64,000 nucleotides of DNA. It comes from Natronorubrum aibiense. GTDB taxonomy: Archaea > Halobacteriota > Halobacteria > Halobacteriales > Natrialbaceae. A model generated the notes under the pieces. It did no database searches and was not told where the DNA came from. It was given only the letters and a program-made list of their open reading frames with translations. Positions 19,163-21,772 of the stretch are shown in pieces; position 1 is the stretch's first letter, and every line of letters begins with the position of its first letter. The stretch spans positions 992,001 through 1,056,000 of the forward strand of contig NZ_CP045488.1 of the NCBI RefSeq assembly GCF_009392895.1, read 5' to 3'. Made by a program: the position numbers and the translations under genes.

Positions 19163-20359
19163 TTATTCCTCGTCGTCGGCGTTTGCGGCGATCGCTTCGT
19201 TCGCGAGACGGCGCTGGAAGCCGTGGTACTTCGCGACGCCGGTGGCGTCTTCTTGGGTGATCTTCCCGACCGTTTCCGTGTCGAAGGAGGCGTGTTCGGC
19301 CGAGTACGCCGCGAATGTGCTGTCGCGGGCCACGGCACGAGCCTGACCGCCCTCGAAGCGGATCGTGACGGTTCCGGTGACGCGTTTCTGTGTCTCGTCG
19401 ATGAAGCCCTCGAGTGCGCCGACGAGCGGCGCGTCGACCAGGCCCTCGTAGCCCTTTTTCGACCAGCGCTGGTCGATCAGCTGCTTGAACTCGCGTTCTT
19501 CCTGCGTGAGGACGAGTCCCTCGAGCGCCTCGTGAGCATTGAGCAGCGTCGTCGCGGCCGGATGCTCGTAGTTCTCACGAACCTTCAGGCCGAGCATGCG
19601 GTCTTCCATCGAGTCGGTACGACCGACGCCGTACGCGCCGGCGACCTCGTTCAAGTGCTGGATGAGTTCGACGGGCTCGTACTCGACGCCGTCGACGGCG
19701 ACGGGGCGACCCTGCTCGAACTCGATATCGATCTCCTGGGTCTCGCCGGTCGGGGCCTGGGTCCAGGCGTAGATGTCCTCCGGCGGGACGTAGCTCGGGT
19801 CCTCCAGCTCGTCACCCTCGACGGAGCGGCTCCAGAGGTTGGTGTCGATCGACCAGTCGCCGCCGCTGCCACCCTCGACGGGGAGGTCCTTCTCGGCGGC
19901 GTACTCCTGTTCCCACTCGCGCGTGAGTCCGAGTTCGCGAACGGGGGCGATGACCTCGAGATCGGAGTCACGCCAGATGGCTTCGAAACGCAGCTGGTCG
20001 TTTCCTTTGCCCGTACAGCCGTGAGCGATGCCGGTACAGCCCTGTTCCTCTGCAACCTCCAGAATTGCCTCGGCGATCACCGGGCGGGCGAGTGCCGTCC
20101 CGAGTGGGTAGCCCTGGTAGGTCGCGTTCGCGCGAACACTGTCAAGACAGAGATCAGCGAACTCCGCTTTTGCGTCGACGACGTAGTGCTCGAGGCCGAG
20201 TGCCTCGGCGGTTTCTTCGGCTTCGTCGAATTCGGAAGCCGGCTGGCCGACGTCGACCGTGACGCCGATAACGTCGTCGTATCCGTACTCTTCCTCGAGC
20301 AGTGGGACACAGACAGTCGTGTCAAGCCCACCCGAGAACGCAAGTGCGACGCGTGTCAT
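19163..20359 (-). CDS. argG: Argininosuccinate synthase
   Basis: 398 residues. The N-type PP-loop ATP pyrophosphatase motif SGGLDTT is at residues 9-15. Further family motifs are GCTGKGNDQLRFE (citrulline/aspartate binding) and TPGETQEIDIEFEQG-type segments. It joins citrulline and aspartate. It is the first enzyme gene of the argG-argH pair, and a 49-codon Arg-rich ORF ends 88 nt upstream on the same strand. Confidence 0.97.
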   Translation of the reverse strand: MTRVALAFSGGLDTTVCVPLLEEEYGYDDVIGVTVDVGQPASEFDEAEETAEALGLEHYVVDAKAEFADLCLDSVRANATYQGYPLGTALARPVIAEAILEVAEEQGCTGIAHGCTGKGNDQLRFEAIWRDSDLEVIAPVRELGLTREWEQEYAAEKDLPVEGGSGGDWSIDTNLWSRSVEGDELEDPSYVPPEDIYAWTQAPTGETQEIDIEFEQGRPVAVDGVEYEPVELIQHLNEVAGAYGVGRTDSMEDRMLGLKVRENYEHPAATTLLNAHEALEGLVLTQEEREFKQLIDQRWSKKGYEGLVDAPLVGALEGFIDETQKRVTGTVTIRFEGGQARAVARDSTFAAYSAEHASFDTETVGKITQEDATGVAKYHGFQRRLANEAIAANADDEE

Positions 20360-20447
20360 ATGGTATTCGAGTGAAGCAGCAGGAGGGACTTAAGCACATT
20401 GATTCTATTTGCGTAAATTAACGTTAGAGCGGCTGCTAACTGGAAAA

Positions 20448-20597
20448 TCAGCGTTTTTGGATCGGTGAAACGGTCCGGGGACGTGGGGTGTGATGTAGGT
20501 CGGGCTCAAAGGCCCGCCGTCGCCGTCGTCGCCGCCGCGGAGAAACAGTCCCGTCGGTACCGGAGACAGCACGCGCGGTTCCGACGGTGGAACTCAT
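20448..20597 (-). CDS. Candidate arginine-rich leader peptide upstream of argG
   Basis: 49 codons, ATG at 20595-20597, TGA at 20448-20450. Residues 21-28 are eight consecutive Arg codons (five CGG, three CGA), and 12 of 49 residues are Arg in total. A TATA-like TTTAATA sits 25-31 nt upstream of the ATG, fitting a near-leaderless transcript that would continue into argG. Behind the stop lie 88 nt with a short hairpin (GTTAG/CTAAC, 20423-20440) and an AT-rich tract. By analogy with bacterial attenuator peptides, ribosome pausing at the Arg run would report arginyl-tRNA supply. A chance GC-rich ORF is the alternative. Confidence 0.55.
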   Translation of the reverse strand: MSSTVGTARAVSGTDGTVSPRRRRRRRRAFEPDLHHTPRPRTVSPIQKR

Positions 20598-20621
20598 TAG
20601 AGAAGCCATAACAGTCCTCAG

Positions 20622-20628
20622 TATTAAA
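20622..20628 (-). promoter_or_regulatory. TATA box of the leader-argG-argH transcript
   Basis: TTTAATA on the minus strand, preceded by AGGA, 25 nt upstream of the leader ATG. It is the best TATA match in the argG upstream region. A second AT-rich patch at 20401-20425 could give an argG-proximal promoter. Confidence 0.5.
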
Positions 20629-20665: not shown

Positions 20666-21772
20666 CTACTCCTCGGTTTCGTCCTCCCCGGGAAGCGCTA
20701 ACACGTTCTCCCGGCCGATCCGAAAGACTTCGATTTCGCCGTCCTCCCGTAGGCCGCCAACGACCTGACTCGTCTTGGCCTCGGTCCAGTCCAGTTCCGA
20801 GACGACCGCCTGCTGTTTGATCCGACCGCCACGTTCCTCGAGCAAGCGCAGGACGCGTTCTTCGTTGCTGAGCAGTTCGTCCGGCGGTTCGTTCGCGTCG
20901 TCGCTCGCGGTGGACCCATCGGTAACCGGGGTCGTCGCGCCGTCGCCCGTGACTATGGAACCCACGCCACTTCGCCGTCGCTCGAGCCACCAGCCAGCTA
21001 CTCCGAGGCCGGCCAGCAAGGCGAGTGCGGCTACCACGGCGAGCCACGGCATCGACGGCCCGTCTGCTGTTTGTGCGGGTTGTCCGTCATCGTCGCTCTC
21101 TTCGATCATGACGACCAGCGGCGGGTCGGGTGAGAACTCCGAGCCGTCGCTGTTCCAGTAGACGGAGTTCTCGTCCTCGGATGCGTCTTCCGGCGACGGC
21201 GAGACTTCTTCGATCGTGTAGCCGTCCGGGGCGAACATCTGCATCGACGTGTTCTGTGAGAGGGTGTATCCCGCGAGCGCGTCGCCCGCCTCGAGGCGAT
21301 TTAGTTCGACGTACGCGAACTTCGACCACTCGAAACTTACCTCGACGCTGCCGAGATCACGCGGTGCGGAGCTTTCGCCCGTCTCGACGGAGACGTTCGA
21401 GAGTTCCATCTCGCGTTCCGTCGCGTTCTCGCCTTCGACGAGAATTTCGTTCCAGCGAGCTTCCTGGCTGGCGGCGTAGACTTCCGGGTTCGATTCGACG
21501 TCGTCTCGAAGGTCCTCCCATTCACCGTCGGAATCGTTCTCGAAGCGGTAGTCGACGGCGAACGTCGCCGATCCGTTCTCGGCGACGAAGATGTCGATAT
21601 GGATCTCGTCCGCCTCAGCGAGTCGGTCGCTCTCGTTGGACGATTCCTGCAGTACTGCACCCTGTGTCGCGACATCGGCAGCAGCCCCGGCCGAAAGAGC
21701 CGGGAGCAGCACCAGGACACAGCCGATTCCCACGAGCACCCAGATCAGGGCCCAGCGCCCCTTCACATCCAT
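20666..21772 (-). CDS. Membrane-anchored protein with cytoplasmic winged-helix domain
   Basis: 368 residues. It has a signal peptide/first membrane segment (about 7-31), an extracellular beta-rich domain (about 50-235) in the style of haloarchaeal DUF7345-type sensors, and a transmembrane helix (WLAVVAALALLAGLGVAGWWLE, about 245-266). After a linker comes a winged-helix domain (NEERVLRLLEERGGRIKQQ, then WTEAKTSQVVGGLREDGEIE) at about 302-360. The architecture suggests a one-component transmembrane regulator that senses outside and binds DNA inside. No cognate target is evident. The DUF label is from memory. Confidence 0.75.
   Translation of the reverse strand: MDVKGRWALIWVLVGIGCVLVLLPALSAGAAADVATQGAVLQESSNESDRLAEADEIHIDIFVAENGSATFAVDYRFENDSDGEWEDLRDDVESNPEVYAASQEARWNEILVEGENATEREMELSNVSVETGESSAPRDLGSVEVSFEWSKFAYVELNRLEAGDALAGYTLSQNTSMQMFAPDGYTIEEVSPSPEDASEDENSVYWNSDGSEFSPDPPLVVMIEESDDDGQPAQTADGPSMPWLAVVAALALLAGLGVAGWWLERRRSGVGSIVTGDGATTPVTDGSTASDDANEPPDELLSNEERVLRLLEERGGRIKQQAVVSELDWTEAKTSQVVGGLREDGEIEVFRIGRENVLALPGEDETEE

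Follow-up and report, generated by a model that had tools for sequence, protein, structure and literature searches.

The gene for argininosuccinate synthase, argG, lies on the reverse strand of the window (that is, the whole 64-kb stretch of DNA analyzed), and is preceded on that strand by a short open reading frame (ORF) rich in arginine codons (Table 1). The genes flanking this leader are argG, argH and argW. A preliminary description had called attention to a 49-codon ORF with a run of eight Arg codons and 12 Arg codons overall, whose stop lies 88 nt from the argG ATG (position 20359), and to a TATA box at leaderless distance from its start. All of these features were found again. TTTAATA precedes the ATG at 20597 by 25 nt, so this codon, and not the ATG at 20609, represents the start at leaderless distance.

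Table 1. Positions in the window of argG, its leader and associated sequence features
Feature	Position	Strand	Remarks
argG, argininosuccinate synthase	19163..20359	-	Putative regulated gene; NF010392 (658.6 bits), TIGR00032 (449.8 bits)
Second TATA-like box, CTTAAG	20389..20394	-	35-30 nt before argG ATG, at leaderless distance
Operator-like imperfect palindrome, GTTAGCAGCCGCTCTAAC	20423..20440	.	Ahead of the argG-proximal promoter; perfect in Halobiforma haloterrestris (GGTTAGAGTGCACTCTAACC)
AU-rich inverted repeat with U4C2, AAAAACGCTGATTTTCC	20442..20458	-	Possible termination site; lineage-specific
Leader ORF, MSSTVGTARAVSGTDGTVSPRRRRRRRRAFEPDLHHTPRPRTVSPIQKR	20448..20597	-	Orthologues in relatives
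Pyrimidine-rich tract	20484..20500	-	Follows the conserved hairpin; in all lineages, with variable sequence
Conserved GC hairpin, CGGGC-CTTTGA-GCCCG	20501..20516	-	Overlaps end of Arg run; contains the stop TGA of most relatives (20508-20506)
Eight consecutive Arg codons	20514..20537	-	All CGA or CGG (rare codons)
Stem 1, inside ORF, upstream of Arg run	20551..20587	-	5' arm CCGTCGGAACC (20587-20577), 3' arm GGTACCGACGG (20561-20551)
Leader promoter TATA box, TTTAATA	20622..20628	-	Same spacing in relatives

The next gene upstream of the leader on the same strand (20666-21772) encodes a protein with DUF7345 and DUF7343. A hydrophobic stretch is visible in this protein by eye, and it is possibly a membrane-bound regulator. 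The window also carries genes for tRNA-Arg (anticodon TCT, 34061-34135) and tRNA-Pro (TGG, 1459-1531). Searches against Rfam, including its T-box and amino-acid riboswitch models, matched only tRNAs in the window, and gave no match in the leader region or in seven leader loci.

Conservation and structure of the leader

Arg-rich spurious frames are common in the GC-rich DNA of haloarchaea, including this genome, as would be expected if the leader were a chance frame of this kind. Within the 64 kb, however, only the leader ORF has a post-ATG run of at least eight Arg codons (four other runs reach five), and only two loci, the argG leader and argW, combine an ORF of 15 to 60 amino acids with a strong TATA box at leaderless distance. 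The preliminary description had suggested a comparison among haloarchaea as a check on the ORF, and we compared 80 named argG loci together with further haloarchaeal genomes. The start, the Arg run and the position of the stop are kept in relatives. In total, 98 distinct haloarchaeal argG upstream regions exhibit the same arrangement, in which a TATA box at leaderless distance is followed by an ORF that ends in Arg codons and, directly after these, by a GC hairpin. Examples of the encoded peptides, each followed by a stop codon, are MSLTVGTTLAAFGTDGTVSPRRPRRRRPGL in Natronorubrum texcoconense, MATRSTLATFAPLRAAAVRRRRPAL in Haloferax and MTRTRRADERAAVSAGPVPLFRRRPRRPGR in Halorientalis. Leader length varies from roughly 22 to 50 amino acids, and conservation is confined to the Arg/Pro run, the hairpin and segments that form stems. 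The argG loci that diverge most in the sample (families f2, f9 and f11) lack the element. Genomes of the window's relatives contain roughly one copy each of the hairpin motif, located at argG.

A scan that was blind to residue identity detected a leader at 66 of the 80 argG loci, versus zero to three of 30 loci at each of five control genes (none for trpC, trpE and argS, one for hisG and three for leuA, none of these with matching residues). This result, together with the conservation of start, stop position, hairpin and codon bias over about 33 named genera, makes a chance origin extremely improbable. Judged by this comparison, the leader ORF is real and conserved.

The stop codon is located in or at the hairpin loop at 89 of the 98 loci with an Arg-run ORF; similarly, where an ATG with TATA-compatible spacing exists, the first in-frame stop falls within the hairpin in 87 of 96 cases. 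The window's own frame has shifted relative to that of relatives. The TGA that most of them use is therefore out of frame, and the ORF extends past the hairpin to 20448, so that its last 20 residues are lineage-specific. The preliminary description had overlooked the lack of conservation of this C-terminal part (AFEPD...QKR). In several other species, readthrough of the hairpin arose independently. Its occurrence in the window's species and in some relatives means that the stop need not lie in the loop.

The conserved hairpin had likewise been overlooked. Its predicted stem occurs in several forms, including GGGC/GCCC, GGGCC/GGCCC, GGCCC/GGGCC (Haloferax and others), GGGCTC/GAGCCC, GGGGC/GCCCC (Halorussus) and GGGGTC/GACCCC, and this variation constitutes compensatory change. 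Its position relative to the Arg codons is also constrained. In all 89 leaders, the GC arm lies at most 2 nt from the end of the final Arg codon, with between two and five Arg codons located within 12 nt of the arm. A ribosome stalled on these codons should therefore cover the arm.

RNAalifold applied to a MAFFT alignment of the leaders yielded no consensus structure, because loops of unequal length misalign the stem; stems were therefore compared in anchored form instead. This comparison also covered stem 1, inside the ORF. It has a helix of at least 7 bp in 86 of 96 leaders, with a mean longest helix of 8.8 bp versus 7.1 bp in shuffled sequences, a modest margin. Stem 1 is present upstream of the Arg run, and we did not find in the leaders a conserved alternative pairing of the kind that would form a mutually exclusive antiterminator.

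Codon choice provides further evidence of selection. The Arg codons of the leaders comprise 281 CGA (59%), 146 CGG, 37 CGT, eight CGC and two AGG codons, whereas the argG genes themselves use CGC (74%), CGT (16%), CGG (7%) and CGA (2%). The choice made in the leaders opposes the genome's preference for GC at third positions. It fits selection for slow decoding that is sensitive to tRNA supply, and RNA structure may contribute to the bias as well. The use of rare codons suggests that tRNA decoding is involved, rather than the chemistry of the peptide. Taken at the level of sequence, the comparison shows that the ORF, its codons, the hairpin and the spacing among them are under selection upstream of argG.

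The region between the leader and argG

The preliminary description had assigned a hairpin to positions 20423-20440. A 5-bp hairpin does exist there, but the conserved hairpin is that at 20501-20516, and the former belongs to a distinct, palindrome-like box that precedes the argG-proximal promoter. The palindrome is a candidate site for some regulator. The CTTAAG box, which had also escaped notice, is one of the TATA-like sequences located at most 75 nt from argG in 82 loci, the window included; most Natrialbaceae and Haloferacales loci have such a box, with an operator-like palindrome ahead of it. A further 20 loci, from Halorussus, Halorientalis, Halobacterium, Haloarchaeobius and others, lack a TATA-like sequence in this interval, and their argG genes most likely depend on the leader promoter. 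In the window, the proximal TATA box could allow argG to be expressed without the leader. The preliminary description had regarded a transcription start downstream of 20450 as incompatible with its proposal. In the window's lineage some transcription may indeed begin there, because of the second, argG-proximal promoter, but the 20 loci elsewhere have no such box.

These promoters bear on the possibility that the leader is a separate small gene, which merely adjoins argG, has its own promoter and produces a peptide or short RNA that acts in trans. A TATA box at leaderless distance from argG in the 82 loci would be expected in this case, as would the AU-rich inverted repeat and T-tract that precede the proximal TATA box in some loci. 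However, the leader is always found upstream of argG, neither the length of the peptide nor its sequence outside the Arg run is conserved, 20 loci have no proximal TATA box, and pheS, trpS and ilvB have leaders of the same design for different amino acids (see below). We consider a separate gene improbable.

The AU-rich repeat belongs to a pattern (A3-5 N4-9 T4+) present in 27 of 79 loci with a proximal promoter, versus 1.5% in shuffled sequences. Its U-tract (T4-5C) lies approximately 54 nt past the conserved hairpin and occurs in only some loci. The AU hairpin (20458-20442) was evaluated as the main attenuator and set aside, since gaps contain T runs of at least four in 41 of 79 loci versus 36% in shuffled sequences, which is a slight enrichment.

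Directly after the conserved hairpin, the gap sequences of the argG loci contain pyrimidine-rich sequence, and no U-tract was found at this position. Consequently, the hairpin is not a classical intrinsic terminator. This fact raises the alternative that the leader acts not by termination, but on translation of argG or on the stability (cutting) of its mRNA, by means of the stop-codon hairpin and the position of the ribosome. In several lineages the argG ATG is preceded by another hairpin and by a single-stranded, CA-rich stretch, as this alternative might predict. Also, the terminators reported for Haloferax are mainly T-stretches that end at C, although one hairpin tested there gave 59% termination (PMC7237163). 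Direct occlusion is harder to reconcile with the distance of 90 to 160 nt between the hairpin and the argG start, and no conserved pairing between the leader and the start region was found. We regard action at the level of translation or stability as unlikely.

Leaders at other amino-acid genes

Leaders with cognate residues also precede other genes related to amino acids. We found a Phe leader (...GFGFFFAR, then stop) at 26 of 30 pheS loci, a Trp leader (...WxWRW..., for example ...LEWQWRW...) at 24 of 30 trpS loci, and an Ile/Val leader (...SSAFASIRIVGA, then stop; that is, ...IRIVGA) at 28 of 30 ilvB loci. The genome from which the window derives carries all three. The ilvB leader has its stop in or behind a hairpin (AGGGGC..GCCCCT) and uses rare codons (ATT, 81% versus 5%; GTA, 87% versus 0.7%), with GTA located within an arm of the hairpin.

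Additional structural details were observed. In the pheS leader (MAPESH...SGFGFFFAR), the stop lies in a GCCCG..CGGGC hairpin, after which comes a further conserved, structured stretch (GGTGGA...GAAACCG). In the trpS leader, the Trp codons occupy the loop of a long, strong hairpin that is often followed by a conserved ACAGT. In the window's genus, the ilvB leader resembles that of argG in that its stop has shifted to a position past the hairpin.

Two of these leaders appear to correspond to published transcripts. In a map of transcription start sites of Haloferax volcanii (PMC4983044, Table 2), pheS and trpS are listed as transcripts with long 5' UTRs containing upstream ORFs (uORFs) of 26 and 23 amino acids, respectively, and with no separate start site at the gene. 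We matched these uORFs to our leaders by gene name and length, and the lengths fit Phe-rich and Trp-rich leaders. The list of long 5' UTRs in that table does not include argG or ilvB. We found no function assigned to these uORFs there, and the only uORF peptides reported are of low isoelectric point, unlike the Arg-rich peptide of the argG leader.

Candidate mechanism and relation to known systems

An attenuator-like element upstream of argG is supported because start, Arg run, stop, compensatory hairpin and rare codons coincide, and because parallel leaders exist at pheS, trpS and ilvB. We judge it quite likely that the argG leader is a cis-acting, ribosome-mediated arginine attenuator that senses charged tRNA. 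The preliminary description had proposed an Arg-leader attenuator, and comparison strongly supports the core of that idea; but the functional hairpin appears to be a different one, and attenuation itself is predicted from sequence alone.

When charged tRNA-Arg is ample, the ribosome would pass the Arg run, terminate at the hairpin and depart. The hairpin could then form, and the synthesis or use of the leader RNA would presumably end before argG. Premature termination might be carried out by the archaeal termination factor FttA/aCPSF1 acting on unprotected RNA; alternatively, the T4-5C tract of the window's lineage may be the point of termination. When Arg-tRNA is scarce, the ribosome would stall at the last Arg codons with its footprint over the 5' arm, so that the hairpin could not form and transcription would proceed into argG. 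According to this model, argG loci without a proximal promoter would depend on readthrough from the leader, whereas in the window's lineage the second promoter, with its operator-like box, would supply argG in parallel.

In fungi, the arginine attenuator peptide is a uORF (arg-2/CPA1) that encodes a conserved arrest peptide sensing free arginine. The argG leader resembles it in being a uORF before an arginine gene, and its Arg-rich C terminus with a stop codon close behind might suggest a nascent peptide that arrests in the same manner. Nothing is conserved in the leader peptide beyond the Arg/Pro run, however, and leaders of homologous design have Phe, Trp or Ile/Val in place of Arg; the rare codons, moreover, point to tRNA decoding. 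An arrest peptide that senses free arginine is therefore very improbable.

We found no description of leader-peptide attenuation in archaea in the open-access literature. We lean toward the broader proposal that haloarchaea possess general, previously undescribed leader-peptide attenuators, in which rare cognate codons and a hairpin near the stop would permit the sensing of charged tRNA for a set of amino acids that includes at least Arg, Phe, Trp and Ile/Val, with archaeal termination that does not involve a bacterial-type terminator. If this proposal is correct, archaea use transcription-translation coupling for amino-acid sensing, and the presence of uORFs on argG, pheS, trpS and ilvB is explained in organisms where leaderless genes prevail. 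The set of leaders would also offer a directly testable assay for coupling and premature termination in Haloferax.

Leader-peptide attenuation is a textbook bacterial mechanism that needs such coupling. The haloarchaeal elements differ from bacterial attenuators in that the leader ORF is archaeal and lies at leaderless distance from a TATA box, the stop is in the loop of the conserved hairpin, and some lineages have a second promoter. Moreover, one defining feature of the bacterial elements, a U-tract after the hairpin, is missing. Like the trp, his, leu, ilv, pheA and pheS leaders of bacteria, however, the haloarchaeal leaders comprise a short ORF with codons, including rare ones, for the amino acid concerned and a hairpin that seems positioned for control by the ribosome, and they are found upstream of genes for biosynthesis and for aminoacyl-tRNA synthetases.
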